Origin: a virus
Reading direction: 5' to 3' (one strand)
Virus record (IMG/VR): IMGVR_UViG_3300025543_003061
Span: 1-21,339 of that record
DNA length: 21,339 nt
The first letter of the stretch is position 1. Every line of letters begins with the position of its first letter. Of this stretch, positions 4,819-19,790 are shown one piece after another. The notes beneath the pieces are model-generated. The model ran no database searches. It worked only from the letters and a program-made list of their open reading frames with translations, and was not told the DNA's origin. The position numbers and the translations under genes were made by a program.

Positions 4819-5547
4819 ATGACAACTTACGTTTCTTTAGTTAATGAATTGCTTCGCAGACTAAACGAAGTCACCTTGGATACTGAGGGTTCTGGCTTTG
4901 ATACTGCACGTAACGTACAAGCTCTTGCTAAAGACTCTATCAATAACTCTATCAGAAGTATTCTTCAGACAGGCCAAGAGTGGCCCTTCCTCAGAGTTAC
5001 TTACACACAGCCTTTAACAGCAGGTGTGAACACTTATTCCTTTCCTTCTAATTATTCTAGTGCTGACTGGGAAACTTTTTATCTTAAGAAGTCCACTTCA
5101 CTAAATAACTCCCCTAGTTTTTTACCAACTATTCCGTATGACGAATACATCCAAAAGTATCGTGAGTCGGATGACACCAGCAACTCTGCAGGTTCAGCAG
5201 CACCTAGAGTAGTGTTCCAAACAAACCAAGAAAAGTTTGGTGTTTCTCCTATCCCTGATGCAGCTTACGAAGTTGAGTATTCTTACTGGTCTTTCCCAGC
5301 TGACTTGACGTTGTACAACGATGTCTCAGTTATCCCAAACAGATTTAAGAGTGTCATTATTGATGGTGCTATGATGTACATGATGCGGTTCAGATCAAAT
5401 GAACAAAGTGCATCAATTCACCAACAGAACTTCCAAGATGGTATCAAGACAATGCGTAGGGTTCTCATTGATGAACACCTTCAAATTCGTTCTACTGTTC
5501 TAGTAGGTGGCTCTGGTTCTAGTGTAACCCTTGGAAGAGTTACGTAA
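4819..5547 (+). CDS. Head-tail adaptor / tail tubular protein A-like
   Basis: A 242-residue protein starting TTYVSLVNELLRRLNEV, then helical NVQALAKDSINNSIRSILQ and GQEWPFLRV. This pattern matches gp11-like (T7) and gp4-like (P22) adaptors that bind below the portal ring and start the tail. The C-terminal part has IPNRFKSVIIDGAMMYMMRF and a helix with QQNFQDGIKTMRRVLID, as in related tubular proteins. AGGA precedes the ATG. It contains no cysteine. Its TAA overlaps the next start codon (TAATG). The family call is from pattern and position (capsid, adaptor, nozzle), so the exact family is moderately certain. Confidence 0.75.
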   Translation: MTTYVSLVNELLRRLNEVTLDTEGSGFDTARNVQALAKDSINNSIRSILQTGQEWPFLRVTYTQPLTAGVNTYSFPSNYSSADWETFYLKKSTSLNNSPSFLPTIPYDEYIQKYRESDDTSNSAGSAAPRVVFQTNQEKFGVSPIPDAAYEVEYSYWSFPADLTLYNDVSVIPNRFKSVIIDGAMMYMMRFRSNEQSASIHQQNFQDGIKTMRRVLIDEHLQIRSTVLVGGSGSSVTLGRVT

Positions 5548-7097
5548 TGGCAGACAACCTAGGTTCATTTAAGGTATTTTCACAGGGTGGTTTAAACCTT
5601 AACAGGGACGTTTTGTCCCAAGGTGAGTTGCAACCTGGATCTGCTATCTCTCTCCTTAACTACGAGCCTGCTACAACAGGTGGTTACAGACGTGTGAGTG
5701 GTTACACTAACGACTACGGTGTAGTTCCAGGGGACAGCTCTGGCAGTGTTCTAGGTGTGGCAGTAGCTGCTGGTATCAATGATGGCATTCTTGCTGCACG
5801 TAAGCCTTCTGTAGGAAGTAACTATCTACACTACTGGGATACAGCAACAAGTTCTTGGGTGGCGGTAACCACTGCTGGATCACCTACAATGACGGGTGTG
5901 TCTAAGGTACGGTTCACTCGATTTAACTGGGGATCTCCAAAGGTTATTCTAACAGACGGTGTAAACCCTGCAGCCACATACGATGGCACAACTTACACCC
6001 AGATTACACATGCTAATGCTCCTACAGACCCTAAGTTTGCTGCAGTGTTTAAGAACCACATGTGGCTTGCAGGTGATCCTGCTGAACCTCACAATGTTTA
6101 CTTTAGTGCACCAACAGACGAAATCAAGTGGTCACCTGTAGATGGTGCAGGTGTAATTAACGTAGGTTTTCCTGTCGTATCAATAAAACCATTTCGTGAT
6201 TCCTTGTTTGTATTTGGTACAAATAATATTAAAAGGATCGTAGGAAACAACATCTCAGACTGGGCTGTACAGCACGTAACAGATGACCTTGGTTGCCTAG
6301 CCTCAGACAGTGTTATTGAAATTGGTGGTGACCTAATCTTTTTGTCACAGGATGGTATCAGACCTATCTCAGGTACAGACAAGATTGGTGATGTAAACTT
6401 AGAAACTCTTACTAAAAACATTCAATCGTTTATATCGGATGTCATCTTAACTAATGACCTTGATGCTGTATCATCTGTTCTCATTAGGGGTAAATCTCAG
6501 TTTAGACTGTTTTATAATGTAGAGAGTGGAAACGGTTTACTTGGGGGTTTGCGTCAAAACCAACAAGGTGGCATTAACTTTGAGTTTAGTCAAATGCTTG
6601 GCATTGAGGTTACTTGTGCTGACAGTGGATACATTGACAAAGAAGAGTACGTAATACACGGTGACTCCAGTGGTAAAGTCCACAGGCAGGAATCAGGTAA
6701 CAGCTTTGGTGGGCAAAACATCGTAAGTCTTTACCAGACACCATTCTTGCACATGCAAGATCCAGAGCAACGTAAGATTATTTATACTGTTGCTACGTAC
6801 CTAAGGTCGGAAGGTGATAACGAGATCGTAATGTCAGTTGTTTTTGACTACGATGATACCACCATTCTAAATCCAACTAACTTTACACTGACCACCGAAG
6901 GTGCTGCTGCTTACTATAACGAAGCTGTCTTTAATGACTCTTCTACTATTTGGAGTGGCAACCCATCCCCCGTTCAAAGGGTCAATGTTTCAGGTTCGGG
7001 AAAATCAGTATCTTTTAGATACGTTACAAATGACACAAATGCGTCTCACAGTGTCCAAGGCATTGTAGTGACATTCGGAGTAGGGGACAGACTTTAA
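5547..7097 (+). CDS. Tail nozzle / tail tubular protein B-like
   Basis: A 516-residue beta-rich protein starting MADNLGSFKVFSQGGLNLN, with the GGLN-type N-terminus and NYEPATTGGYRRVSGY near residue 40 seen in podoviral nozzle proteins (compare T7 gp12 and P22 gp10). Residues 150-260 carry KFAAVFKNHMWLAGDPAEP and SIKPFRDSLFVFGTNNIKR, the repeating beta-blade-like pattern (short segments ending in hydrophobic strands) expected for a hexameric propeller-type nozzle. It contains only two cysteines. It is coupled to the adaptor gene by a TAATG overlap, and the fibre gene begins directly after its stop. It likely forms the distal tube through which DNA is ejected. Confidence 0.75.
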   Translation: MADNLGSFKVFSQGGLNLNRDVLSQGELQPGSAISLLNYEPATTGGYRRVSGYTNDYGVVPGDSSGSVLGVAVAAGINDGILAARKPSVGSNYLHYWDTATSSWVAVTTAGSPTMTGVSKVRFTRFNWGSPKVILTDGVNPAATYDGTTYTQITHANAPTDPKFAAVFKNHMWLAGDPAEPHNVYFSAPTDEIKWSPVDGAGVINVGFPVVSIKPFRDSLFVFGTNNIKRIVGNNISDWAVQHVTDDLGCLASDSVIEIGGDLIFLSQDGIRPISGTDKIGDVNLETLTKNIQSFISDVILTNDLDAVSSVLIRGKSQFRLFYNVESGNGLLGGLRQNQQGGINFEFSQMLGIEVTCADSGYIDKEEYVIHGDSSGKVHRQESGNSFGGQNIVSLYQTPFLHMQDPEQRKIIYTVATYLRSEGDNEIVMSVVFDYDDTTILNPTNFTLTTEGAAAYYNEAVFNDSSTIWSGNPSPVQRVNVSGSGKSVSFRYVTNDTNASHSVQGIVVTFGVGDRL

Positions 7098-10000
7098 ATG
7101 GCGGGTTATACAAGACAGAGTGTTGCCGATATTGTTTCTGGTCAGGTTATTAAAGCTGAACCAATTAACAATGAACTCAACCAATTACTAGCAGCTTTTG
7201 CTGCTTCTTCAGGCCACAAGCACGATGGAAGCACAGGTCAGGGTGGCTACATTCCACTCATTGGTGACGTGGATGCCTTAAACAAAGTTGTTGTAGACAC
7301 AACTAACAACAGAGTTGGTTTCTTCTCTGAGGTTGGTGGTGTTGCTACTGAACAAATTCGTATCCAAGATGGTGCTTTAGTTCCTGTAACAGACGATGAC
7401 ATTGATCTAGGTTCTGCAAGTGCTGAATTTAAAGATCTGTACATTGACGGTGTTGGCTACATTGACACCTTGGCAGTCCACGAGAATGCTACAATTACAG
7501 GCAATCTTACAGTAAATGGAAACACTACACTAGGTAGTGCTGCCACTGATACAGTGACTGTAAATGCTGACGTTTCTTCAGATCTTATCCCTTCTGCAGA
7601 TGCAACGTATGACCTAGGTGCTACAGGTAGTGAGTGGAATGATGCTTACATTACTGGTACAGCAAATATTGACAGCCTTGTAGCTGACACTGCAGATATC
7701 AATGCAGGTACAATAGACAACACTGTTATTGGTAATACGACTGCTGCCTCTGGTGAATTTACAACCCTTGGATCTAGTGGTAACCTTACTGTTGGTGGTA
7801 CTGCAGGAATTACAGGCAATACTACACTAGCAGGTACACTTGGTGTTGCAGGTGTTGCAGGTTTTGGTGATACAGTAACTGTCCCAGACCTTTCTGCTAC
7901 AGGTACAGCAACACTAGCTACAGTAGATATTAATGCAGGTAATATTGATGGCACTGTTATCGGTGCTTCTACTGCTGCTGCTGGCAGCTTTACTACAGTT
8001 AGTACGTCAGGACAAGGTACTTTTGCTACAGTCGATGTCAATGGCGGTACTATTGATGGTACTATTATTGGTGGGACTACACCAAGTGCTATCACAGGTA
8101 CAACAATTACTGGTACTAGCCTTGTAGGTCCAGTTACAGGTAATGTCACAGGTAACATTACTGGTAACGTAACAGGTGACCTAACAGGTAATGTTGCAGG
8201 AAACGTAACAGGTGACGTCACTGGGGATCTCACAGGAAATGTTACAGGTGATGTTACTGGGGATGTAACAGGTAACCTAACAGGTACTGTTACAGGAAGT
8301 GTAACAGGGAATGTAACAGGTGATGTAACTTCAACAGGTACATCATCTTTCAATGATATTAACATGTCTGGTTCTGCGGGAATTGACATGGGTTCTGCAA
8401 AGATTACTTCTCTTGCAGCTCCGACTGCTGATGGTGATGCAGCCACGAAATTGTACGTGGACACGTCCGTTTCAACTCTTATTGACTCAGCACCAGGTAC
8501 TCTGGACACTCTTAACGAGATTGCTGCAGCTATTGGTGACGATCCAAACTTCAGCACAACAATCACATCAAGCATTGCAGGTAAGTTACCACTAGCTGGT
8601 GGAACAATGACTGGTGACGTTGTATTAGGTGCTAACAAGGCTACATCTACAGCTACACCTGCTACTGCAGATACTCTTACTCGTAAGGGTTACGTAGACG
8701 ATCAAGATGCACTTAAGCTAAACTTGACTGGTGGAACCATGTCAGGTGCTATTGCTATGGGGACATCTAAGGTTACAGGAGTTGGAGATCCAACCCTAGC
8801 TCAAGATGCAGCAACAAAGTCTTACACTGACACCCAACGTGATACACGACTTTCGTGTTCTGGTGGTACTATTACTGGTACTATCGACATGGGTTCTAAC
8901 AAGATCACGTCAACATACACACCTACTGATGCTGTTGATTTTACAACAAAGACGTATGTTGATGGTATCCTGCAGTCTGCCACAGCTGCTTGTGCTTCTG
9001 CTGCATGTGCCTTAGCAAGTCAAACTGCTGCAGCAACTTCTGAGACAAATGCAAGTAACTCAGCTTCTGCTGCTTTAACCTCAGCTAACAATGCTGCTAC
9101 ATCTTATGACAATTTTGACGACAGATACCTTGGCAACAAGGCGTCAGACCCCTCTGTAGATAACGATGGAGATAGCTTACTTACTGGTGCTCTCTACTGG
9201 AATACCACAGATAATGCTCTAAAAGTTTATACAGGATCTGCTTGGAACTCTGCAGCATTTACCTTGGGTGATGCTCTTACTGCTATCTCTGATGATACCA
9301 CCCCTCAACTAGGTGGTAACTTAGACTCAGGTTCTAACTGTATATACGGCACAGGATCAGCCTGTTTCTCAAACTTCTATGGAACACTGACAGGTAACGT
9401 TACTGGTAATGTTACTGGTACTGTTTCTTCCCTTTCCAACCATGACACAGATGATCTAGCAGAAGGTACAAATCAGTACTATACAACAGCTAGAGTTGAC
9501 AGCCACCTAGCAGGTGGTACGGGTGTAACATACTCAAGTGGTAACATCTCTATTGGTCAGTCTGTAGGTACTTCAGACAATGTATGCTTTGGGTCTGTCT
9601 GTGTTAGTGCTAACCCAACTGCTGCTTGTCAACTTGCAACAAAAGAGTACGTTGATACAATTGCTGCTGCTGGTATTCACTACCACACACCTGTCCGTGT
9701 TGAGTCACCAGACAGTGCAGGAAGCCTTGCTGCTACCTATGATAACGGTGCATCAGGTGTAGGTGCTACACTTACTAATAATGGTACTCAAGCTGCACTT
9801 GTTATTGACGGTGTAACAGTTAACACAAATGATCGTGTTCTTATCTATAGCCAAACTAACGGCTATGAGAATGGTATCTACACAGTAACTAACACAGGTT
9901 CTGCAAGCACTAACTGGGTTCTTACTCGTGCTACAGATGCTGATAGCTACGGTGCCTCGGCCCAAGATGCCTTGGGTGAGGGTGACGCATTCTTCGTGAA

Positions 10001-10982
10001 AGAAGGTGACACAGGTGCTGGTGAACTTTATGTTATGAACACATCAGGTGTCATAACATTTGGTACAACAAACATTAGCTTCACTGTCGTAGCTGAGACT
10101 GCTGTATACGAAGCAGGATCAGGCTTGACACTGGACGGTACAACCTTTAATATTGGAGCAGGTACTGGTGTTACAGTAAATGCTTCTAACATTGCTATTG
10201 GTCAGTCTGTAGGTACAGGTGACACAGTAAACTTTGCAAGAGTATGTGCTCCTGTCACAGGTAACGTAACTGGTAATGCTGACACAGCAACTACTTGGGC
10301 TACAGGAAGATCAATCAGCCTTACAGGTGCAGTTACAGGTTCTGTCACAGGAGTAAACGGTTCAGGTAATGTAAGTATTGCAACGACTGCAACCTCTGAT
10401 CCTACTCTTTGTATCTGTGGTGATGCAACAGGTTCTGCTACATTTACTAACTTGGGTAATGCTAACCTTAGCCTTACTATTGCTGACGATAGCCACAATC
10501 ACACAGTAGCTAACGTAGATGGATTGGCGACATGTCTTTCAGGCAAAGCCTCTACTACCTGCGCAAGCTCTATTGTAACCTGTTTAGGCGGCAAGGCTAC
10601 GTCCAGTGGTTCATTTGGTACAAACTTCTGTGCGAATATCTTCTGCTCAGACGTTTGTGTTAAGTCACCAACCATCTGCTCAACAGGAACAGTCTTCGGT
10701 TCAACTCTTTGTGCAACAGGCACAGGAGCAAGTAAACTTAACGTAGGAACTACGGCCCAAAGACCAGGTACACCTGCAAACGGTATGCTTCGTTACAACT
10801 CAGAAGATAACTCATTTGAAGGATACCAAGGTGGTGAATGGTCTGGTCTAGGGGGTGGAGGTGGGTATTTGCCTATCCGACTATTTGATAACTCTCAACT
10901 TCTCATTGCTGCTGAGACAGGATCAACTCTAATAATCACAGGACGTGTCGCAGACACTACTATCGCACTACAAGCCCTATAG
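7098..10982 (+). CDS. Long repetitive tail fibre with cysteine-rich distal half
   Basis: This 1294-residue protein has an N-terminal virion-attachment-like part (SGHKHDGSTGQGGYIPLIGD, about residues 38-57), then beta-repeats rich in Gly, Thr, Asn and Val. Residues 346-411 are a run of about 16 tetrapeptides of VTGN/VTGD type. At about 420-622 come four modules of roughly 38 residues ending in KLYVD, KGYVD, KSYTD or KTYVD, as in many trimeric phage fibres. An Ala/Ser segment that may be a coiled coil follows (about 625-670). All 19 cysteines lie after residue 586; the first half has none. The C-terminus (LPIRLFDNSQLLIAAETGST) resembles the start of the next gene's product. It should bind the host surface as a trimer. 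The fibre class is clear; the ligand is unknown. Confidence 0.85.
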   Translation: MAGYTRQSVADIVSGQVIKAEPINNELNQLLAAFAASSGHKHDGSTGQGGYIPLIGDVDALNKVVVDTTNNRVGFFSEVGGVATEQIRIQDGALVPVTDDDIDLGSASAEFKDLYIDGVGYIDTLAVHENATITGNLTVNGNTTLGSAATDTVTVNADVSSDLIPSADATYDLGATGSEWNDAYITGTANIDSLVADTADINAGTIDNTVIGNTTAASGEFTTLGSSGNLTVGGTAGITGNTTLAGTLGVAGVAGFGDTVTVPDLSATGTATLATVDINAGNIDGTVIGASTAAAGSFTTVSTSGQGTFATVDVNGGTIDGTIIGGTTPSAITGTTITGTSLVGPVTGNVTGNITGNVTGDLTGNVAGNVTGDVTGDLTGNVTGDVTGDVTGNLTGTVTGSVTGNVTGDVTSTGTSSFNDINMSGSAGIDMGSAKITSLAAPTADGDAATKLYVDTSVSTLIDSAPGTLDTLNEIAAAIGDDPNFSTTITSSIAGKLPLAGGTMTGDVVLGANKATSTATPATADTLTRKGYVDDQDALKLNLTGGTMSGAIAMGTSKVTGVGDPTLAQDAATKSYTDTQRDTRLSCSGGTITGTIDMGSNKITSTYTPTDAVDFTTKTYVDGILQSATAACASAACALASQTAAATSETNASNSASAALTSANNAATSYDNFDDRYLGNKASDPSVDNDGDSLLTGALYWNTTDNALKVYTGSAWNSAAFTLGDALTAISDDTTPQLGGNLDSGSNCIYGTGSACFSNFYGTLTGNVTGNVTGTVSSLSNHDTDDLAEGTNQYYTTARVDSHLAGGTGVTYSSGNISIGQSVGTSDNVCFGSVCVSANPTAACQLATKEYVDTIAAAGIHYHTPVRVESPDSAGSLAATYDNGASGVGATLTNNGTQAALVIDGVTVNTNDRVLIYSQTNGYENGIYTVTNTGSASTNWVLTRATDADSYGASAQDALGEGDAFFVKEGDTGAGELYVMNTSGVITFGTTNISFTVVAETAVYEAGSGLTLDGTTFNIGAGTGVTVNASNIAIGQSVGTGDTVNFARVCAPVTGNVTGNADTATTWATGRSISLTGAVTGSVTGVNGSGNVSIATTATSDPTLCICGDATGSATFTNLGNANLSLTIADDSHNHTVANVDGLATCLSGKASTTCASSIVTCLGGKATSSGSFGTNFCANIFCSDVCVKSPTICSTGTVFGSTLCATGTGASKLNVGTTAQRPGTPANGMLRYNSEDNSFEGYQGGEWSGLGGGGGYLPIRLFDNSQLLIAAETGSTLIITGRVADTTIALQAL
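8133..8330 (+). repeat. 12-nt tandem repeat in the fibre gene (VTGN repeats)
   Basis: About 16.5 units of 12 nt with consensus GTNACAGGTAAY or GTNACAGGTGAY encode V/L/I-T-G-N/D/S/T tetrapeptides. Units differ mostly at third codon positions and at the last residue. Two shorter runs recur near 9390-9425 and 10250-10275. The array would form a regular beta-solenoid-like shaft and could change fibre length by slippage or recombination. Confidence 0.85.
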
Positions 10983-10995
10983 GAGCATAAAAACA

Positions 10996-11427
10996 ATGGC
11001 GGATTTTTTCCCGATAGTCGTAGACTCGGCTAACTCAATTATCAAGGAATTACCATCAGGTGATACCCTTGACCTTACTAACTCTACAATCAAAACAAAA
11101 GACTTTGAAGTAACTGGTGCTGTGTATCAAGACATCAACACCAGTTCTACTACTACTTTTGACCTGAGTGTATCTTCCTTTTTCCAAGTAACTCTCAACG
11201 CAAACTTGACAATTTCGGCTATTAATAATGCAACTGCTAATGTTGCTCAATCCTTCGCAATTGAAATAGTAAACGGTGGGGCATACTCCGTAACGTGGCC
11301 TGGCTCAATAAGATGGGATGGTGGTATTGCCCCTACTCTTACAGAGAACAGAACAATCTTGTTTATGTTCTATACGACAGACGGTGGGACTACCTTTAGA
11401 GGCCAAGTGGTAATGGAGACCCAATAA
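10996..11427 (+). CDS. Fibre-tip-like small tail protein (143 aa)
   Basis: The start is ATG 10996, preceded by AGGAG at 10981-10985; upstream codons overlap the fibre gene and are not needed. The 143 residues begin MADFFPIVVDSANSIIKELP and contain TTFDLSVSSFFQVTLNANLT, SVTWPGSIRWDGGIAPTLT and FMFYTTDGGTTFRGQV. This beta-sandwich-like pattern (Leu/Thr strands, a TWP motif, YTTDGGTT near the end) is common in receptor-tip or collar proteins of marine phages. It has no cysteine although it sits between two cysteine-rich products. It is coupled to the next gene by TAATG. Likely part of the fibre assembly. Confidence 0.65.
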   Translation: MADFFPIVVDSANSIIKELPSGDTLDLTNSTIKTKDFEVTGAVYQDINTSSTTTFDLSVSSFFQVTLNANLTISAINNATANVAQSFAIEIVNGGAYSVTWPGSIRWDGGIAPTLTENRTILFMFYTTDGGTTFRGQVVMETQ

Positions 11428-13565
11428 TGACAATTCCTTTTTACCAAATACACAGCAACTCCAATGCTCCTAACTACGTAGACTTTGAAAGACCTAAGTA
11501 CTGGTGGGTAAGGCTTGATACTGGTCCTACCCTTAACACTGGTCAGTGTCCAGTTATTGCCACGTGTCCTGATAGGCAGTCTGGCCTTAGCCCTTGGGTT
11601 CCTGTTCAAGTAAACATGTGTGATAGGTCATATCATATTCCCACAGGTGGTCAAAGGTTTACTTGCTGCAGCCATGGGGATGGCAACATGTGTGTTGTTA
11701 ATCTTGACTATCAGGGTTCTGTAGGACCAGTCAGTTTCACGAACATGTATAGACCATGTAGGCCAATAACAGACGCATGTGGCTGTACGGTCACTGGTAT
11801 TCATGACCTCCACTCTTACTCAACAGGTAGTGCTGACCATATCGTCAACTATACAACTGAGCTTTATCAAGTCTTCCAGGGGACTTCGACATGGGATATC
11901 TTTACCGCTGGTGTAACTCGGTCACCTATCGTGACTCTGAGTCTTCCAACATGTCAAAGTTGCACCAACTATTGGAATAGTAAGGTCTGTAACTATTCGC
12001 CTATAGTCTATAGCCCAACAACAAGTACTTCTTTTGCTTCACAAACTGTTAGCACCCAGTGTCACTGCTCCAATGGTTATGCAGATATATGCCTTCGGAC
12101 AAGAACTGGTCAATTCTCAGTTGAAAATGCTATTGATTGTGCCTGCTGTAACTGGGGGGCATGTTGTTCTAGGGCTGCTGTAGTATGTCACGGGGAGGTT
12201 AACGCCAAGTACTGTGTTAAACCGTGCATCTCTGGCTATGGCGGTTGTAATCACAGGTACTACCACTGGATTCAAAATGACGACAAGAACCCAGACTACT
12301 TCTACCATGTTATGTCCTTTTCTGCTCGGTATAGAACTGAAACTGTTTGCAATTGCCACTGCCTTGGTCCTTGGGCTACCGGAAACTGCTTTGTTCAAAA
12401 CTGCTGTGGTGGCGTTTTTGACAACGTTGTAGCCAGAGTTAAGATTTGCGCCAGTGGTAACCACTGTGTCCCACAGGCCATCATCTTCCCTGTTAGTTGC
12501 CTTCAATCTGATGGATTTATAACTAGAGGTACCTTTAAGAAACTTTGCAACATGGAAGACGATCAGTTTCTTCTTACAACGAATGGCGTTTCCTTTGACT
12601 GGGAGCACAGTGCTACCTGCAGATGTTGTTCAGCATCCACTAAGCTTTTGTCTTTTGACATAGCTACAGGATGTACTTGTGTTATTAGAATGAACATAGG
12701 CTGCTCCTGTGCAAATAATTTCTGTAACACCTACACAGATGCTATTTTCACGTCCAGAGGAACTTTTGTTGTTGCAACATCAACTCTTGCCTGTGCAAAC
12801 TGTTACAATTCTAACGAAGGATTTAGTACTACTTACATATCTGAGTTTAATTGTGATTTCACAGTTAACCTAGGTACTGTTGCAATTAGACCAAATGTTA
12901 AAAGGATCTTCGACTGTGACTGCAACACAAGATCTTGCACTTCGGACGTAGTCAACCTTGCTTACGATAAGTATGATGACTCTGTTATTGTATCTTTTGG
13001 TAAAAGTTCCAATTTTAGCAGTGTTAACTGCCTATGTGGTCTTAATGCTACCTCTTCTGGTGCAATTCATACTATGAAACTGCCAAGCTGTATTGGTTCG
13101 TTTTGTCAGTACCTTTGTGAACAGTGTAGATATTCAGGGCCAAGGTGCTGTCTTTACTTCTGCTGCTGCTGTCTTCCAGTTACTTGTACGTACCAAGCTT
13201 CGTGTAAGATATTGAATACAAAAGACTATGTGTATAATGTTTGTAGTTCCTGTGTTTGTGCTCAGAGAACAGTGTTTACTGCTCCAACCATGTGCTCAAC
13301 TGGAAGTTTCCTTAATTGCTGTACGAACTACCGTTCTTTCCTTCAAAGACTTTGCTGGGACTCGGTCTGTCTTTGTAATTATTCTCAATGCCTTTGCAAC
13401 GTAGGCTGCGCCGGTGCTAACCCAAGCCTGTTCTGTAGATTTAGGTATACAGAATCACAAACTCGTGATATTTGTTGTGGGTGTGCGAGTGTTTTTTGCA
13501 AAGACTACACAAGACAGTATAGCCCATCCATATCTTACACCGCCTTCTGTGTAGAATGTAACTAA
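11427..13565 (+). CDS. Extremely cysteine-rich tail-associated protein (712 aa), function unknown
   Basis: By my count the protein has about 81 cysteines (near 11%), from residue 41 to the end, many as CC, CxC and CxCC; residues 574-582 include four Cys in a row. The Cys-free N-terminus (MTIPFYQIHSNSNAPNYVDF) leads into a mostly beta-type sequence with aromatic and Thr/Ser-rich strands. Segments such as NLAYDKYDDSVIVSFGKSS and DAIFTSRGTFVVATSTLA resemble blade repeats of a beta-propeller, which is only suggestive. There is no signal peptide or membrane segment. GGAG at 11414-11417 and the TAATG overlap with the preceding gene support the start and its reality, and both Cys codons are used. 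It sits between fibre genes and a fibre chaperone-like gene, so a receptor-binding or appendage protein is likely. I do not recognise the family. Confidence 0.8.
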   Translation: MTIPFYQIHSNSNAPNYVDFERPKYWWVRLDTGPTLNTGQCPVIATCPDRQSGLSPWVPVQVNMCDRSYHIPTGGQRFTCCSHGDGNMCVVNLDYQGSVGPVSFTNMYRPCRPITDACGCTVTGIHDLHSYSTGSADHIVNYTTELYQVFQGTSTWDIFTAGVTRSPIVTLSLPTCQSCTNYWNSKVCNYSPIVYSPTTSTSFASQTVSTQCHCSNGYADICLRTRTGQFSVENAIDCACCNWGACCSRAAVVCHGEVNAKYCVKPCISGYGGCNHRYYHWIQNDDKNPDYFYHVMSFSARYRTETVCNCHCLGPWATGNCFVQNCCGGVFDNVVARVKICASGNHCVPQAIIFPVSCLQSDGFITRGTFKKLCNMEDDQFLLTTNGVSFDWEHSATCRCCSASTKLLSFDIATGCTCVIRMNIGCSCANNFCNTYTDAIFTSRGTFVVATSTLACANCYNSNEGFSTTYISEFNCDFTVNLGTVAIRPNVKRIFDCDCNTRSCTSDVVNLAYDKYDDSVIVSFGKSSNFSSVNCLCGLNATSSGAIHTMKLPSCIGSFCQYLCEQCRYSGPRCCLYFCCCCLPVTCTYQASCKILNTKDYVYNVCSSCVCAQRTVFTAPTMCSTGSFLNCCTNYRSFLQRLCWDSVCLCNYSQCLCNVGCAGANPSLFCRFRYTESQTRDICCGCASVFCKDYTRQYSPSISYTAFCVECN

Positions 13566-13576
13566 GGAGATAGCTC

Positions 13577-14185
13577 ATGTGGTATAGTTTAGAATACGGA
13601 AGAAGGCTCAAGTCTAAGGACATAAAAGATTTGTATAAGAACATTTCTTTTCCAGCAGCTTTTACAAAAGGGTTTATGGGGATAACCCCTGAAATTGCAG
13701 AAGCTACCAGACTAATTCCTCTTTTAATCCCATCCGAACCTGAACCAGGGGTTGATTATGACCCCGACTTTCAACAACCTATCTTGGACTTTTCTCAAGT
13801 AACGGTAAACGAAAGTCAGACTGAATCCTTTGGTACTTGGGTTATCTCTGATGTTTTTCAAGATATTCTTGATGAAGGAGGGACTGTGATAAAGAGCAAG
13901 GAAGAAGTTAAAGCAGAGGTCGAGGAAGAACAAGCAAAAGAGCTTGCTGAACTTGAACGTATTGCGGGGGAAGAGGAAAAGGAGCAACTAACTCTTCTCA
14001 ACAGATTTCGTAGGGATAACCTTCTTGTACTCTCTGATCAGTACGTGACAGAAGACTGGGGGGTTGACACAGAAGAGGAAACACAAGAATGGTTATCCTA
14101 CAGGAAAGCTTTGAGGGATTTAACTTCTGATCCTAGTTGGCCTACTGTAGACTTTCCTGTACCTCCTATTCCCCTTGAAGAATAG
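13577..14185 (+). CDS. Tail-fibre assembly chaperone-like protein
   Basis: The 202 residues follow the plan of phage tail-fibre assembly proteins (Tfa / Phage_tail_APC type). The N-terminal half has NISFPAAF, then a Pro-rich stretch and VDYDPDFQQPILDFSQVTVN with FGTWVISDV. A Glu/Lys-rich helix (about 115-140) follows, and a C-terminal motif RRDNLLVLSDQYVTEDWGVD, EWLSYRKALRDL and FPVPPI. Such proteins help fold or trimerise the adjacent fibre and may stay on the tip. It has no cysteine. TAAGGAG precedes the start, joining it to the cysteine-rich gene. Placement right after that gene suggests it serves that protein. The -35 box of the next promoter overlaps its last codons. Confidence 0.7.
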   Translation: MWYSLEYGRRLKSKDIKDLYKNISFPAAFTKGFMGITPEIAEATRLIPLLIPSEPEPGVDYDPDFQQPILDFSQVTVNESQTESFGTWVISDVFQDILDEGGTVIKSKEEVKAEVEEEQAKELAELERIAGEEEKEQLTLLNRFRRDNLLVLSDQYVTEDWGVDTEEETQEWLSYRKALRDLTSDPSWPTVDFPVPPIPLEE

Positions 14186-14254: not shown

Positions 14255-15181
14255 ATGAAAACCGTCTTTATGATTGACGGGGGTGCGGGTCGAGCTATTG
14301 CTGCTATTCCCGCCCTCCTCAAATATAATAAGAGTAATCCTGACTTCAGGGTTCTCGTACATGGCTGGGATACTTTATTTTGGGGTATTCCAGAGTTACA
14401 GGATAAAGTGTTCAACCCAGACCAGAAGGGTGCCTTTGATCAGTTCTTTATGGATGCTGATGAAGTTTTATCTCCTGAGCCGTATAGAGTACCAGGGTAT
14501 TACAAACAAGAGAAGTCTTTGGCGGAAGCCTTTGACTACTTAATCAATAACACAGACGATCACTCTGACCTTGGTGTTCCTGTTATTAAAACAAACAAGC
14601 AAGAAGAACTACAAGCTGCTAACTTTATGCAGCAGGTTAGACAACAACAACAAAAACAGAAGACTGTTGTTATCCAACCGTTTGGTAGGTCAATGGAGAA
14701 GCCTCAGGATAATGTCCTTATGGATCAGTCTTCTCGTTCTATTAATCCTGATACGTATCTAAAGCTGGTTAAGAAACTGGCAACGAAGTACAACTTGGTC
14801 TTGTTTGCTGAAAAGAACTTCTGGATGGAGGAAGATACCTACACAATGAAGCCTGAGGCTGACTTGCGTATGTGGACTGCCTTTATTGACGCAGCAGATT
14901 ACTTCATTGGTTGTGATTCTGTAGGCCAGCACATGGCTCGTGCCCTGAATAAACCTGGGACTGTTGTTATTGGTTCTACCTTTGCTATCAACACCTCCTA
15001 CCCTAACTACTTTAATATCATCGAAAGGGATGTTCAGAAGAAGTATTCACCTATTCGTATCTCTGGCCTTGAGTCTCACTTGGCTGACAGAGCTAATGAA
15101 GCTACTGTCGAGTTTACTGATGAAGAGATCAACAAGATGTACGAGTCTATCGTAAAAGACATTGAAAAGAAGGTGAAGTAA
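14255..15181 (+). CDS. GT9-like glycosyltransferase (heptosyltransferase-type)
   Basis: The 308-residue protein has a GT-B-like plan. The N-terminus MKTVFMIDGGAGRAIAAIPA, followed by a strand with FRVLVHGWD, resembles the opening of GT9 enzymes. The C-terminal domain has FIGCDSVGQHMARALNKPGT, matching the D-S-x-x-x-H-x-A-x-A-L-x-K-P signature of the nucleotide-sugar site in ADP-heptose:LPS heptosyltransferases. A Gln-rich linker (about 125-137) lies between the domains. Neighbouring genes make ADP-heptose, so ADP-heptose is the most likely donor. The acceptor is unknown: LPS core, or possibly a protein, since some heptosyltransferases modify autotransporters. It is first in the module, with the carbamoyltransferase start 1 nt after its stop. 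Confidence 0.65.
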   Translation: MKTVFMIDGGAGRAIAAIPALLKYNKSNPDFRVLVHGWDTLFWGIPELQDKVFNPDQKGAFDQFFMDADEVLSPEPYRVPGYYKQEKSLAEAFDYLINNTDDHSDLGVPVIKTNKQEELQAANFMQQVRQQQQKQKTVVIQPFGRSMEKPQDNVLMDQSSRSINPDTYLKLVKKLATKYNLVLFAEKNFWMEEDTYTMKPEADLRMWTAFIDAADYFIGCDSVGQHMARALNKPGTVVIGSTFAINTSYPNYFNIIERDVQKKYSPIRISGLESHLADRANEATVEFTDEEINKMYESIVKDIEKKVK

Positions 15182-15182
15182 G

Positions 15183-16898
15183 ATGAACATTCTAGGTATT
15201 AACCCAGGTCATAACGGTGCAGCAGCACTCCTCGTAGACGGTGAGCTTGAGTTCTACATTGAAGAAGAACGACTGTCCCGTAGTAAGTACGATGGCAACC
15301 CTCTCATGGGTATTCTTGAAGGCTTAAAACATGGCATTGACGTACTCGTTATAGGTGGCACAAGTACTCAGCTGCCTCAGTTACCGTGGACAGGTGAAGA
15401 CCCGTACTCTGCTTTAGTACGTAAACACAACCCCAATGTACAGGTTATTAACGTAGGGCATATTCACCATATTGGACACGCAGCCGCAGCTTTTTATAAC
15501 TCAGGGTTTGAAGATGCTGCTGCTGTTATTGTAGATGGCTCTGGAACACGTCAAGAGATCCAGATCACTGAAGAAGGTCAAAAGAATCCTGGCTTTGAGA
15601 CTGAGACCATCTTTAACTGTGACTACGAAGAGGGTATAAAACCTGTATTCCAAGCTTTGGGTGGTAATCCCGACACTCAAAGAGTTATCAGTGATAGCCT
15701 TGAAATGGATTCAGCAATTACCCTAGTCAAAGCCTACGAGGCTGTTTCTGACTACCTTGGCTTTGGGTTTATTGAAGCAGGTAAGACAATGGGTCTTGCA
15801 CCCTACGGTAAAGACGATGAACTTATTCCCTCTCTCTTCTATGGAGGACGAGGTAACAAGAACGTATTTGTTCCTAACTACCCTGCTGGTGCCTACATTG
15901 ACCACACACGTCACCCCTACCTGACACTCAAGGAAGATCCTAAATCTTGGCACAGTGATTCCTCCAAGGTGACAGATGCTGCTAAGAACCTAGCTTGGGC
16001 TGTGCAGGACGAGACACAACGTCTTGTTGGTGACTTGATTGAAAAAGCTGTTAAGGCAACAGGAAAGAAGAACATTGTTATTGCTGGTGGCTACGGCCTC
16101 AACTGTGTAGCCAACTACTACTACAAGAAACGTTTCCCTGACCTTAATATCTATGTTGACCCTATCTCGCATGATGGTGGAACAGCTCTTGGTATAGCTC
16201 AGTTAGTTTACTATACAGAGTCTAAAGATAAAACTATACGTCCTCTTAATACTTTGTACCTTGGTCCTAAAAGAGAAGAAGAATACGACTTTGGTGACAT
16301 TGAAACTACAGATGTAACACCTGCTGACATTGCTAAGATGATCTCTGAGAGAAACATTGTAGCTATGGTGCAAGGTAGATCTGAAGCTGGCCCTCGTGCT
16401 CTTGGTAACCGTTCTATCCTCTACGATCCCACTGATCCTAACGGTAAGGACACAGTGAACAAAGTCAAGGGACGTGAGTGGTTCAGACCTTTTGCTGGTT
16501 CCATGATGCAGGAACACTTTGAGGAGTGGTTCGATACATACGGAATGGAAGAGACACCATTCATGATGTATGCAATGGACTTCAAGCTAGAGAAGCATGG
16601 TGAGTGTCCAGCAATCACACACGTAGATGGTACTTGTCGCATCCAAACTGTTACCAAAGAACAGAACGAGGTGTACCACACTCTGATTGACGAGTTCCGT
16701 AAGATTACAGGTGTTCCTATCCTGTTTAATACAAGCTTTAACTTGGCGGGTGAACCTCTGGTAGAAACACTTGATGATGCAATGAGAACTATTAAGAACT
16801 CTGACATCAAATACCTGTACCTACCAGAGTTAGGTAAACTGGTACATTATCCTTATAATGACTCAGTTGTAGAAGACTTGGGGGAGGCTGCTGCTTAA
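15183..16898 (+). CDS. O-carbamoyltransferase, NodU/TobZ (CmcH) family
   Basis: The protein has 571 residues, full length for the family. MNILGINPGHNGAAALLVDG begins the Kae1-like domain; the metal-binding His cluster HIHHIGHA lies at residues 93-100; GKTMGLAPYG, GGYGLNCVAN (about 302) and SHDGGTALGIA follow. The C-terminal YrdC-like domain shows GRSEAGPRALGNRS (about 398-411) and VPILFNTSFNLAGEP. These enzymes make carbamoyl-adenylate from carbamoyl phosphate and ATP, then carbamoylate a hydroxyl, often of a sugar. With an ADP-heptose pathway around it, heptose is the likely target, as in the carbamoylated heptose of Pseudomonas LPS core. Its TAA overlaps the opposite-strand gmhB stop (CTTAAG). 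The family call is very strong, the substrate an inference. Confidence 0.9.
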   Translation: MNILGINPGHNGAAALLVDGELEFYIEEERLSRSKYDGNPLMGILEGLKHGIDVLVIGGTSTQLPQLPWTGEDPYSALVRKHNPNVQVINVGHIHHIGHAAAAFYNSGFEDAAAVIVDGSGTRQEIQITEEGQKNPGFETETIFNCDYEEGIKPVFQALGGNPDTQRVISDSLEMDSAITLVKAYEAVSDYLGFGFIEAGKTMGLAPYGKDDELIPSLFYGGRGNKNVFVPNYPAGAYIDHTRHPYLTLKEDPKSWHSDSSKVTDAAKNLAWAVQDETQRLVGDLIEKAVKATGKKNIVIAGGYGLNCVANYYYKKRFPDLNIYVDPISHDGGTALGIAQLVYYTESKDKTIRPLNTLYLGPKREEEYDFGDIETTDVTPADIAKMISERNIVAMVQGRSEAGPRALGNRSILYDPTDPNGKDTVNKVKGREWFRPFAGSMMQEHFEEWFDTYGMEETPFMMYAMDFKLEKHGECPAITHVDGTCRIQTVTKEQNEVYHTLIDEFRKITGVPILFNTSFNLAGEPLVETLDDAMRTIKNSDIKYLYLPELGKLVHYPYNDSVVEDLGEAAA

Positions 16899-17542
16899 GG
16901 CAGTCTCTCAACGAATTGGAGGAGGTTGTCGAAAACTTTCGTCTTCTTTCTTAACTTCTCTTTAGAGAACTTCTTCAACTCTCCTTCAGTAGCCATCCCG
17001 TGACCAGTACGTACTAGGATCGGGGTGGCACCAATCTTAGCAGCAGCTTTGAGGTCGGACATCTTGTCCCCTACGTAGAAACCACCCTGTTTAAAACGGG
17101 CCTTTCCCTCAAAGATTTCTTTCTCTGCTCTGTGAAACATACCTAGGTTAGGTTTGGCGTAGTAGTCCTCCTTAAGAGAGGATTCAGAGTAAAAGAGACC
17201 ATCAACTGTATAGATACCAGCTCTACCAAAGATCTCAAACATACGTTGATGCACAGATTCTACCTGCTCATGGGTTTGTAACCCCTTAGTAATACCACCT
17301 TGGTTAGTAAGAATAACTACTTTGTATCCCTTAATACGTAGTTTATGGATAGCTGCTAGGGACTCAGGTATAACTTCGAAGTCTTCAGGATCTGTTATGT
17401 AGTGTCCTTTGTCTACGTTGATCACACCATCACGGTCCAAGCCCACAATAGCTTTAGGGAAGACTGTAGGCCAATCTGGTGGTAACTCCTGCTGAGGTTG
17501 TTGACTTGGTTCTTGTGTGATAATATGTTTAAATCTGGACAT
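16895..17542 (-). CDS. gmhB: D-glycero-D-manno-heptose-1,7-bisphosphate phosphatase (HAD-IIIA)
   Basis: The 215 residues show the HAD motifs: LDRDGVIN (D36 nucleophile, D38), ILTNQGGITKG (about 77-87), K130 in YYAKPNLGM and YVGDKMSDLKAA (D159, D163). The pattern and length match GmhB, which removes the C7 phosphate of heptose-1,7-bisphosphate between the HldE kinase and adenylyltransferase steps. The zinc-binding loop usual in GmhB, with its Cys and His residues, is replaced by a short loop without Cys (YSESSLKEDYYAKP). About 28 Gln/Pro-rich residues precede the HAD core. This is the only gene on the - strand; AAGGAG lies 5 nt before its start, and a promoter-like pair lies over the start of the divergent gene. 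The related histidinol-phosphatase family is an alternative, but context favours GmhB. Confidence 0.82.
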   Translation of the reverse strand: MSRFKHIITQEPSQQPQQELPPDWPTVFPKAIVGLDRDGVINVDKGHYITDPEDFEVIPESLAAIHKLRIKGYKVVILTNQGGITKGLQTHEQVESVHQRMFEIFGRAGIYTVDGLFYSESSLKEDYYAKPNLGMFHRAEKEIFEGKARFKQGGFYVGDKMSDLKAAAKIGATPILVRTGHGMATEGELKKFSKEKLRKKTKVFDNLLQFVERLP

Positions 17543-17560
17543 AGGATCTCCTTTAGGTGA

Positions 17561-17589
17561 ATAATAATAATGAAGAAAGTTTTTGTCAA
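17561..17589 (-). promoter_or_regulatory. Sigma70-like promoter for gmhB on the - strand
   Basis: On the - strand, TTGACA (17589-17584, 6 of 6), a 17-nt spacer and TATTAT (17566-17561, 5 of 6) point at gmhB. It lies over the first codons of the divergent adenylyltransferase gene. The transcript would start near 17554, directly at the ribosome-binding site, so the leader would be very short. A neighbouring TATTAT at shorter spacing makes the exact -10 uncertain. Confidence 0.5.
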
Positions 17590-17971
17590 TGGAGCCTTTG
17601 ATGTTCTACACTCTGGTCATCTTGACATGTTGGATTATGCTTCAAGTTTAGGGGATCATCTACTTGTAGCTATTGACACAGACACCCGTATTGAGTATAA
17701 CAAGGGTAAAGGAAGACCATTTAACAAATTGTCAATTCGTAAACGTCTTATGATGTCTCTTAAGCCTGTAAGTAGTGTTGCAGTATTCAACACCGATCAG
17801 GATCTGGTAGATCTAATAAGACGATTTGAACCTGACATTATGGTTAAAGGATCAGATTGGAAGGGGAAGCCGATCATTGGGGAGGAGTACTGTAAGAAAG
17901 TAATCTTCTATGAGAGAACCAATGGCGAATCAACAACAAAAACCATTCAAGATTTTATTGATAGGCGATAG
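17570..17971 (+). CDS. hldE (adenylyltransferase part): D-glycero-beta-D-manno-heptose-1-phosphate adenylyltransferase (HldE C-domain)
   Basis: The 133 residues correspond to the C-terminal domain of bifunctional HldE. They have the nucleotidyltransferase signature GAFDVLHSGHL (about 8-18), VAIDTDTRIEYNKGKGRP, the MVKGSDWKGKPI segment and the C-terminal STTKTIQ motif. The enzyme joins heptose-1-phosphate and ATP to give ADP-D-glycero-D-manno-heptose. AGGTGA at 17555-17560 precedes the ATG. It is a stand-alone protein, unlike the fused HldE of enteric bacteria, and it comes before the kinase gene rather than after. Its end overlaps the kinase gene by about 50 nt. Related cytidylyltransferases share the fold, but the motif set and context fit HldE. 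Confidence 0.85.
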   Translation: MKKVFVNGAFDVLHSGHLDMLDYASSLGDHLLVAIDTDTRIEYNKGKGRPFNKLSIRKRLMMSLKPVSSVAVFNTDQDLVDLIRRFEPDIMVKGSDWKGKPIIGEEYCKKVIFYERTNGESTTKTIQDFIDRR

Positions 17972-18677
17972 TTGTTACGATGACTACCACTACGGTAGTA
18001 TCAACAGAATAAGCCCAGAAGCCCCTGTTCCTGTCCTTGATATGGATAGAGTTGTTACCAAAAAGGGTATGGCCTTTAACGTATTTAATAACGTACTTGC
18101 TCTTGGAGCTGAAGCTCACATCATAACAGAGTTCAGTGAAAGAAAACACAGGTATCTTGACAGTAAGACTGGTCAGCAACTACTCAGAGTAGACGAGAAG
18201 ATTGATAAGAAGATTGTTGATACAGCAGAAGAAGACCTTAACGAGTACGATGTAGTCATTGTCTCAGACTATAACAAGGGTTTCTTTAACGAAGATGACA
18301 TCACTGAGATTATAAGTAAGTATAGTGGTCCTATCTTTGTTGATACTAAGAAAAGAGATCTATCTATCTTTGATGGATGCTTTGTTAAGATTAATCAGTA
18401 TGAGTATGAAGCCTCTGACAGACTAACAGAAGACCTCATAGTTACCTACGGCTCAAAGAAAGTCGAGTACAAGAACAAGACTTACACTCCACCTAAAGTG
18501 GAAGCCTACGATGTGTGTGGAGCTGGCGATACATTCCTAGCTGCTCTTGCCTATAAGTACTGTGAAGAATATAATATGGATGAAGCAATAAAGTTTGCAA
18601 TGATTGCTGCTTCACTCACGGTACAACACATAGGTGTCTATGCACCCACACTAGAGGAAATACAGAATGCGGCTTGA
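17922..18677 (+). CDS. hldE (kinase part): D-glycero-beta-D-manno-heptose-7-phosphate kinase (HldE N-domain, PfkB type)
   Basis: I choose ATG 17922 (251 residues, MANQQQKPFKILLIGDSCYD) because GAGAG is well placed before it; ATG 17910 is a possible alternative. PfkB/ribokinase features are the opening ILLIGDSCYDDYHYG, a KGMAFNVFNNVLALGA segment where relatives have GGAANVA, IVSDYNKGFF, FVDTKKRDL and the anion hole DVCGAGDTFLAALAY. It phosphorylates C1 of heptose-7-phosphate. It is about 60 residues shorter than the E. coli HldE kinase domain, with a compact middle, and KINQYEYEAS stands at the usual substrate-loop site. The overlap with the upstream gene and the 11-nt overlap with the cupin gene imply coupled translation. 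Confidence 0.8.
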   Translation: MANQQQKPFKILLIGDSCYDDYHYGSINRISPEAPVPVLDMDRVVTKKGMAFNVFNNVLALGAEAHIITEFSERKHRYLDSKTGQQLLRVDEKIDKKIVDTAEEDLNEYDVVIVSDYNKGFFNEDDITEIISKYSGPIFVDTKKRDLSIFDGCFVKINQYEYEASDRLTEDLIVTYGSKKVEYKNKTYTPPKVEAYDVCGAGDTFLAALAYKYCEEYNMDEAIKFAMIAASLTVQHIGVYAPTLEEIQNAA

Positions 18678-19023
18678 AGGTGTAGTAAAGAAGGGTTGGG
18701 GATCAGAGTTAATCTGGGTAACTAACGACAAGTACTGCGGTAAGTTTATGAACTTTAAGCAGGGTGCCAAGTTCTCGATGCACTTTCACAGAGAAAAAGA
18801 TGAGACTTGGTTCGTACTCACTGGAAAGTTTCTGGTTACTTGGATTGATACTGTGGATGCCAGTGAGCACGTAGAAGAGCTTAATGAGGGTGACACTTGG
18901 CATAACCCACCCCTTGTTCCTCACCGGATTACCTGCCTAGTGGAGGGTACTGTAGTAGAGGTATCTACCCCAGATTCCGTTGAGGATAACTATCGTGTAG
19001 CTAAGGGCGACAGCCAAAAATGA
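18667..19023 (+). CDS. Single-domain cupin, possible sugar-phosphate isomerase-like
   Basis: The 118 residues form one cupin barrel. Motif 1 is GAKFSMHFHREKDETWFVLTG, with metal-ligand candidates H39, H41 and E46, and motif 2 is GDTWHNPPLVPHRITC with H86. The WGSELIWVTNDKYCGK start and the PHR segment resemble type II mannose-6-phosphate isomerase cupins and related LPS-locus cupins. It acts in the cytoplasm and has no signal peptide. It lies between the heptose kinase and the epimerase, with an ATGA overlap to the latter. The heptose pathway here has no GmhA, so an isomerase role on sedoheptulose-7-phosphate is conceivable but unproven. The cupin fold is certain, the reaction is not. Confidence 0.85.
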   Translation: MRLEGVVKKGWGSELIWVTNDKYCGKFMNFKQGAKFSMHFHREKDETWFVLTGKFLVTWIDTVDASEHVEELNEGDTWHNPPLVPHRITCLVEGTVVEVSTPDSVEDNYRVAKGDSQK

Positions 19024-19790
19024 AGATCTTAGTTACTGGTGCTAGTGGGTTCATTGGTCAGAACATGGTCAGTGGACTCAGGGAAGAACACGAAGTTATT
19101 CCTCACGAGTGGGGTCAGACAACCTCTAAAGTAAGAGAGGTAGACTGGGTTGTTCACTTAGGTGCTATAAGCTCTACAGTAGAGCAGAATGTAGCTAAGA
19201 TCTACAGACAAAATTTAGACTTTTCTATTAATCTCTATGAAGAGTGTATAAAGAACAAAGTAAACTTTCAGTTTGCTAGTAGTGCGTCAGTATACGGGTT
19301 GAAGTCATCCTTTGAGGAGAGTGCTCCCCTTGATCCCCAGAACCACTATGCTCGTAGCAAGGCAATGTTTGAGAAATATATTGAGCTAAGGAAAGCCCCT
19401 ATTATTACTCAGACGTTTCGATACTTTAATGTGTATGGGCCACACGAAGATCACAAAGGTGGTCAGGCAAGCCCTCATACTCAATTCACTAAGCAGGCTA
19501 AGGAGACTGGTCTTATAAAACTCTTTGAGGGATCAGAGAACTATAAGAGAGACTTCATTAACGTATCTCAGGTTGTAGACTACCATAAACTCTTCTTCTC
19601 TATTAAAGAGTCAGGTGTTTGGAACATGGGTACGGGTGTAGCTAAAAGTTTTTATGACGTAGCTAAAGATATAGCTGAGGAACATGAGACTAAAATAGAA
19701 TACATCCAAATGCCAGACATCCTAAAAGATAACTACCAAGAGTTTACACAAGCAAACACTGACAAGCTTCGTAAGACTTTATTGCTATAA
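19020..19790 (+). CDS. hldD: ADP-L-glycero-D-manno-heptose 6-epimerase
   Basis: This short-chain dehydrogenase/reductase has 256 residues. The dinucleotide-binding loop is VTGASGFIGQN (6-16), followed by HLGAISSTVEQN, FQFASSASVYG, YARSK (catalytic Tyr and Lys) and RYFNVYGPHEDHKGGQAS. The HKG lysine matches the second catalytic base known in E. coli HldD. KLFEGSENYKRDFINVSQVV and FTQANTDKLR agree almost segment by segment with HldD. It converts ADP-D-glycero- to ADP-L-glycero-D-manno-heptose, the usual donor for core heptosyltransferases. The protein stops soon after the FTQA segment, about 40 residues earlier than E. coli HldD, so the last helix is missing. It closes the module. Confidence 0.87.
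   Translation: MKILVTGASGFIGQNMVSGLREEHEVIPHEWGQTTSKVREVDWVVHLGAISSTVEQNVAKIYRQNLDFSINLYEECIKNKVNFQFASSASVYGLKSSFEESAPLDPQNHYARSKAMFEKYIELRKAPIITQTFRYFNVYGPHEDHKGGQASPHTQFTKQAKETGLIKLFEGSENYKRDFINVSQVVDYHKLFFSIKESGVWNMGTGVAKSFYDVAKDIAEEHETKIEYIQMPDILKDNYQEFTQANTDKLRKTLLL

Follow-up and report, generated by a model that had tools for sequence, protein, structure and literature searches.

Attachment of a sugar to cysteine is a known chemistry, as in the glycocin sublancin with its S-linked sugar; these peptides are small, carry the sugar at one or two positions and depend on another glycosyltransferase family than the one considered here. The heptosyltransferase TibC decorates an adhesin at many sites, on serine, by means of ADP-heptose (PMC4358343). 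In the phages P-SSM2, S-SSM7 and S-SM2 a related cassette was described as LPS genes without known use, possibly 'stuffer DNA' (PMC3037559). For Agrobacterium phage Milano a Cys content of 1.4% overall and 2.1% in structural proteins is reported (PMC10811340).

In this study, we followed up an initial annotation of a 21,339-nucleotide stretch of viral DNA (the window), in which a protein of far higher Cys content is encoded in the tail-fibre region. Across phage lineages, Cys-rich proteins of this kind are linked near-obligatorily to a transferase and a carbamoyltransferase. Even if the chemistry proposed below is wrong, the near-absolute tie of proteins with about 10% Cys to a single pair of enzymes remains a strong rule without an explanation.

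The 712-aa protein and its gene neighbourhood

The initial annotation had read the gene at 11427..13565 (+) as an intact frame for a 712-aa protein with about 81 Cys (roughly 11%), spread from residue 41 onward. The count gives 81 Cys, or 11.4%, which makes Cys the commonest residue, with the first at position 41 and the noted CCCC run at residues 579-582 (nt 13161-13172). The frame starts with ATG and runs through 712 aa, both Cys codons are used (50 TGT and 31 TGC), GGAG upstream provides the Shine-Dalgarno motif, and the start overlaps the preceding stop by one base, in agreement with the claimed coupling. Past residue 40 the spacing of Cys is approximately random, with 11 CC against 9.7 expected, 16 CxC against 9.6 and 9 CxxC against 9.6. 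We regard the product as a putative fibre-tip adhesin and candidate substrate of modification enzymes; its site is that of other Cys-rich proteins.

The placement in the appendage region also stands, as the gene lies between two fibre genes and a fibre chaperone gene. Upstream are a tail fibre of 1294 aa with a conserved N-terminus (7098..10982, +; PHROG tail fibre) and a tail-fibre-type protein of 160 aa (10945..11427, +; PHROG tail fibre); downstream is a tail fibre assembly chaperone of 202 aa (13577..14185, +; PF16778 Phage_tail_APC above cut-off, PHROG tail fibre assembly). The claim that the flanking genes encode no Cys holds for both immediate neighbours but not for the tail fibre two genes upstream, which has 19 Cys, all in its distal half (residues 587-1205). 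The phage belongs with the HMO-2011-like group: the adaptor gene shares 75% identity with its counterpart in the cultured roseophage CRP-9, and the gene order matches CRP-9 and HMO-2011, with coat, adaptor and stabilisation homologues in the same order.

Behind the chaperone gene stands a 308-aa protein (14255..15181, +) belonging to phrog_8954 (E 7e-84), a family to which PHROGs assigns no function. We describe it as a GT9/heptosyltransferase-like transferase on the basis of its linkage and of weak matches that stay below curated thresholds: 19.3 bits to Glyco_transf_9 (cut-off 22), 30 bits to RfaQ (cut-off 467) and 30 bits to heptosyltransferase III (cut-off 170). It has a single Cys, and a sequence search of the PDB gave no relative. 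Adjacent on the same strand is a NodU-type carbamoyltransferase of 571 aa (15183..16898, +; PF16861, PF02543, phrog_1601 at E 6e-151). The initial annotation makes no mention of these two neighbours. We defined a module as an ORF of at least 200 aa and at least 6% Cys, within the tail-fibre region or next to it, accompanied by adjacent same-strand transferase and carbamoyltransferase genes; the window holds such a module, with the 712-aa, 11.4% Cys protein between fibre and fibre chaperone.

The cassette continues with an ADP-heptose-like set, whose best matches are GmhB, HldE-C, HldE-N and HldD, all below the equivalog cut-offs. It consists of a HAD phosphatase resembling the heptose bisphosphate phosphatase GmhB (16895..17542, −; NF006506), an HldE C-domain-like nucleotidyltransferase, or heptose-1-P adenylyltransferase (17570..17971, +; TIGR02199), an HldE N-domain-like heptose-7-P kinase of PfkB type (17910..18677, +; TIGR02198, PF00294) and an HldD-like ADP-glyceromanno-heptose 6-epimerase (19020..19790, +; TIGR02197 at 224 bits, cut-off 274.6). 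A small cupin (18667..19023, +; PF07883), whose cyanophage relatives are annotated 'cysteine dioxygenase', lies before the epimerase gene.

We found no relatives of the 712-aa protein itself in viral contigs, plasmids or phage records, and none of the other Cys-rich proteins proved related to it. Pfam (above cut-off), PHROG and NCBIfam gave no family match, and PDB sequence searches returned chance-level matches. The initial annotation knew of no described family like it, and in the searchable part of the open-access literature we likewise found no mention of comparable Cys-rich fibre proteins in phages. An AlphaFold model from the single sequence reached pLDDT 30 and was useless.

Near-obligatory linkage of Cys-rich proteins to one enzyme pair

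Loci of relatives were fetched by the structural gene (window 5547-7097) and picked regardless of Cys. Downstream of the tail fibre several of them encode proteins of 405-1150 aa with 8-12% Cys, while CRP-9, CRP-13 and others have Cys-poor proteins there. The latter are unrelated in sequence, and conserved homologues lacking the Cys, named by the initial annotation as evidence against its reading, were thus not encountered at the locus. The N-terminal anchor MAYKINGTTVVDNSRNVCACCVTSCCITAS retrieved 25 loci, whose Cys-rich proteins contain 6.9-12.7% Cys. The Cys-rich proteins are mostly dissimilar to one another, some having short conserved ends in common. Among loci picked by the structural gene or the anchor, the transferase is present in each Cys-rich locus with enough flanking DNA and absent from the Cys-poor relatives. 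On the structural-gene tree 23 tips have both and 11 neither, and all three supported changes are joint, although three alone cannot reach significance.

The same relation was seen in the opposite direction. At least 591 relatives of the transferase occur in viral contigs, of which 80 loci were fetched and read. A Cys-rich ORF (at least 150 aa and 6% Cys) was found in 73 of the 80, the seven exceptions being contigs that end no more than 1.1 kb upstream of the transferase; where more than 1.2 kb is available upstream, such an ORF lies beside the transferase in 72/72 loci, and the Cys-rich ORFs are on the transferase strand in 132 of 132 cases. The carbamoyltransferase is present in all 68 transferase loci with at least 2.5 kb downstream. 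At least three heptose genes accompany the transferase in 32 of the 46 loci with at least 7.5 kb downstream; the other 14 lack three such genes nearby, which makes the identity of the sugar uncertain. The partner proteins of the transferase (about 7-13% Cys) form many families without detectable sequence similarity.

In annotated phages the transferase occurs in the T4-like cyanophages P-SSM2, P-SSM5, S-SSM7, S-SSM6a, S-CAM1, S-CAM3 and Sf-FS3, and also in single-cell marine viruses. Cys-rich proteins (7.6-11.6%) adjoin it in the seven annotated regions that were read, exemplified by PSSM2_304 and PSSM2_306 with 36 Cys each and by SSSM7_114 to 116, which are also Cys-rich and lie beside the transferase. 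The pairing spans HMO-2011-like podoviruses, T4-like cyanophages (cultured P-SSM2, S-SSM7, S-CAM1 and S-CAM3) and one archaeal contig. That the lineages bearing the transferase differ follows from the T4-like capsid gene gp23 on three of six transferase contigs tested and a window-type coat on another (L102). Genome contigs gave a Cys-rich protein beside the transferase in 7/7 cases; six of these resemble phage contigs binned with bacteria or archaea. The remaining one, L213, is a Woesearchaeota contig with a Cbf5-type TruB nearby and encodes a 591-aa Gly- and Cys-rich protein with a signal-sequence-like N-terminus. This cellular version is rare, found in one of 279 genomes of the archaeal phylum, and may therefore be a lateral acquisition.

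As controls, ORFs of at least 200 aa with at least 6% Cys were tallied. They account for 201 of the 725 ORFs up to 4 kb from the transferase, for 3 of 428 at larger distances and for 1 of 586 in loci without the transferase; in this last case (L101) the Cys-rich gene is cut off by the end of the contig. These tallies are given as counts without a significance test, because the loci are non-independent samples. Another seeming exception, L086, is a duplicate of L034 that was omitted from one table. In S-RIM44, which has the carbamoyltransferase but no transferase match, ORFs of at least 150 aa reach at most 3.3% Cys in the entire 197 kb, and in S-SM2, P-TIM68, S-T4 and Sf-CH8, where heptose genes stand in LPS-like clusters with no transferase match, no ORF exceeds 4.7% Cys in the approximately 41 kb around those genes. 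Cys-richness thus tracks the transferase and not heptose genes or carbamoyltransferase alone.

In ordinary alignments of the 1140-aa and 714-aa families no residue, or hardly any, is better conserved than Cys. Scoring matrices reward matched Cys, and five pairs were therefore aligned with every Cys masked as X. Identity at Cys against that at other residues was then 82 v 57%, 54 v 40% and 54 v 36%, and in the most distant pairs the advantage was marginal (35 v 27% and 37 v 31%); the conservation is smaller than in ordinary alignments and holds in the closer pairs. Usable dS values were obtained for 660 pairs of Cys-rich proteins, and the median dN/dS of these pairs was 0.15; the window's protein stands outside this set, and kept Cys positions frequently switch between TGT and TGC. 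The Cys of the relatives are under purifying selection. Selection on the frame, the second point on which the initial annotation had staked its reading, was thereby observed for related Cys-rich proteins, the window's own gene having no close relative.

The 81-Cys content of the 712-aa protein far exceeds chance, as the other genes of the window have 0-1.7% Cys and the ORFs of transferase-less loci contain a single case. Chance or a composition artefact was rejected as the source of Cys by the ORF controls and dN/dS. An origin from a diversity-generating retroelement was set aside by inference, because both Cys codons are freely used.

Proposed modification and rival explanations

Unrelated adhesin-like proteins that are Cys-rich only beside one enzyme pair are most simply accounted for as substrates of these enzymes. 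Judging from sequence, we give roughly even chances to the reading that the 712-aa protein is a fibre-tip adhesin of a convergent Cys-rich class and that the neighbouring enzymes modify its side chains, with Cys thiols as the most likely targets. During infection the GT9-like transferase would attach a sugar to a large number of side chains in this protein, a variable fibre tip or distal fibre component, and likewise in the Cys-carrying distal portion of the fibre encoded upstream; the sugar would probably be heptose, made with the ADP-heptose-like cassette, and the carbamoyltransferase would then carbamoylate the glycosylated product. The Cys thiol is the most likely acceptor (S-linked), because Cys-richness is the sole feature common to the unrelated partner proteins. 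Counting against Cys are the Ser acceptor of TibC and the richness of the partner proteins in Ser and Thr. Decorated in this way, the thiols would already be capped when the virion reaches oxic water, and the fibre would present a dense, tunable coat that serves in host binding or as protection. More tentatively, and at somewhat below even chances, we suggest that phages and at least one archaeon possess a dedicated S-glycosylation system that places dozens of carbamoylated sugars on fibre-tip Cys, with unrelated scaffolds having converged on about 10% Cys as its substrates.

The upstream fibres carry 18-58 Cys in transferase-bearing phages and 0-1 in transferase-less relatives; one locus (L040) is an exception, having Cys-rich tips and yet a Cys-free upstream fibre. 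The positions of the fibre Cys are occupied mostly by Thr, Ala, Leu or Ser in transferase-less homologues (at least 40% identity), and for this reason the fibre fold has no need of Cys. The Cys load of the upstream fibre belongs to the same phenomenon. A model of a cyanophage-type 265-aa partner family, built on 31 sequences and of moderate quality (pLDDT 67, pTM 0.70), is similar to the Pam3 cyanophage fibre (E 4e-6, TM about 0.5) as well as predicted proteins of S-CAM3 and P-SSM2, which is consistent with the cyanophage-type partner being a fibre tip.

The initial annotation had offered disulfides, closed after lysis, or metal binding as the use of the Cys. Motif statistics were obtained on 85 non-redundant Cys-rich proteins, which are also rich in Ser and Thr, and parity on those with a start. 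Intrachain pairing predicts even Cys counts, and 39 odd to 38 even were seen; metal sites predict CxxC, and only CC (1.42-fold, z 10) and CxC (1.22-fold, z 5) are clearly enriched, CxxC reaching 1.11-fold. The lack of a parity bias together with little CxxC argues against mainly intrachain disulfides and classical metal sites, and neither chemistry predicts near-obligatory transferase and carbamoyltransferase neighbours. Disulfides between chains keep some probability. We consider unlikely a disulfide-armoured tip, in which lysis into oxic water would let Cys pair, partly between trimer chains, and so make the appendage more stable, the enzymes glycosylating Ser/Thr of the same protein or acting otherwise. 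Its precedent is the structural disulfide network of phage Milano (PMC10811340), and high conservation is expected of disulfide Cys, but the strongest enrichment is that of adjacent CC, homologous fibres exist without Cys, and the near-perfect tie to the transferase is left unexplained. Metal binding, in which Zn, Fe or Cu sites would help the tip to fold or let it make use of receptors for metal uptake, has the slightest chance of all. It would suit the many Cys and the over-representation of His directly after Cys (1.42-fold), yet CxxCH occurs 12 times against about 8 expected, Pfam and PDB sequence searches with the window protein gave no metal-site family, and the link to the transferase has no reason in it. 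The Ferrojan horse idea of the initial annotation, and iron in general, receive neither support nor contradiction from these results.

Carbamoylation of a Cys thiol is known from HypF/HypE, and the carbamoyltransferase accompanies the Cys-rich proteins just as constantly as the transferase does; it could act directly on the Cys thiols, the GT-like protein having lost or changed its sugar-transfer role. S-RIM44, with a carbamoyltransferase and no transferase match, has no Cys-rich protein, and the frequent heptose cassette points to a sugar; such direct S-carbamoylation is highly improbable. The chemistry of the LPS core includes heptosyltransferases and the carbamoylation of heptose, and the enzyme pair might alter the host LPS, so as to mask receptors or exclude superinfecting phages, its company with one class of receptor-binding proteins being incidental. 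The genes of P-SSM2 and S-SSM7 have long been classed as LPS biosynthesis (PMC3037559). Against this stand partners that are mostly unrelated to each other, with Cys-richness alone in common, the locus on an archaeal contig, where LPS is unexpected, LPS-like heptose clusters that gave no such transferase match and hold no Cys-rich ORF, and the position of the pair beside tail genes in the window, P-SSM2, S-SSM7, S-CAM1 and S-CAM3; we judge an action on the host surface quite unlikely, a little more so than the disulfide tip.

Comparison with known systems

If true, the proposed S-glycosylation would be a new protein modification on phage surfaces, present across several phage lineages, and cultured phages such as P-SSM2 carry the system. 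It would provide a function for a marine cyanophage gene group filed as LPS genes in 2010 (PMC3037559), and also for the PHROG families 8954, 4205 and 35878, to which no function is assigned. The LPS regions of P-SSM2 and S-SSM7 contain the same gene families as the window, T4-GC 302-308 (transferase, carbamoyltransferase, HldE parts, cupin and epimerase); their Cys-rich neighbours were not remarked on in PMC3037559, in the text of which the word 'cysteine' is absent.

The cyanophage-type Cys-rich partners are predicted to be alike in fold to the Pam3 fibre and match PF21722 (Gly_rich_2) weakly, below the Pfam cut-off; neither likeness was seen for the 712-aa protein in Pfam and PHROG searches. 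Phage Milano has in common with our case an unusual use of Cys in phage structural proteins (PMC10811340). There the 1.4-2.1% Cys concern the sheath and baseplate, in contrast to about 10% in the proposed fibre tips, and no linked transferase is named in the passages covered.

The bacterial autotransporter heptosyltransferase systems TibC/TibA and Aah/AIDA-I likewise combine a heptosyltransferase with a large repetitive surface adhesin (PMC4358343). TibC has a four-Cys iron finger and the transferase of the window a single Cys, on which account the latter is not of TibC type; its alignment (A8) holds no conserved four-Cys set. The acceptor of TibC is Ser, whereas the one proposed here is Cys, the putative adhesin is Cys-rich, a carbamoyltransferase is the constant partner, and the system belongs to a phage and not to a bacterium.

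Arrangement of the Cys-rich genes

Two Cys-rich proteins, one long and one short, with similar N-termini, are encoded side by side in loci L124 (10016-13161), L212 (4153-6914), L033 and L034. Such a pair was found repeatedly, in HMO-type contigs, in the single-cell virus AG-345-O18 and in a Gammaproteobacteria MAG contig, which suggests that it travels as one unit. Gene order is variable: in L112 two Cys-rich genes come after those of the GT9-like transferase and the NodU-type carbamoyltransferase, and in L149 the Cys-rich genes are located 6.8-8.4 kb downstream of the transferase. Despite the altered order, the association of Cys-rich genes with the transferase is kept in both loci.

Carriers of the module

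The module, comprising Cys-rich, transferase and carbamoyltransferase genes, is also borne by the phage contig L113 (44 kb), in which we found a match neither to the window's HMO-2011-like coat nor to a T4-like gp23 capsid; it possibly represents a third lineage, or else a fragment devoid of the coat gene. Contigs L208, L209, L210, L211, L212 and L214 resemble fragments of phage DNA; their assignment to MAGs of Rhodobacteraceae, Euryarchaeota, Actinomycetota, Gammaproteobacteria and Flavobacteriales is probably a binning error.

Contig L213 (JAHFPP010000006.1), from a Woesearchaeota MAG, bears cellular genes and the module (6046-11317). Within this segment, genes for the same transferase and carbamoyltransferase and a GmhB-like gene adjoin that of a 591-aa protein, which is rich in Gly and Cys and whose N-terminus resembles a signal sequence. 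The transferase was present in only one of 279 genomes from this phylum.

Cassette cupin and a Cys-poor relative

The ADP-heptose-like cassette includes a small cupin (window 18667-19023; L121 24637-24993, and relatives). Its cyanophage copies are annotated as 'cysteine dioxygenase', a name that is doubtful, because the window copy matches generic cupin families only.

In L084 (ctYwJ313, MW202701.1), a Cys-poor relative, a repeat protein annotated as WD40 (16327-18471) occupies the same place in the appendage region as the Cys-rich protein of the window.
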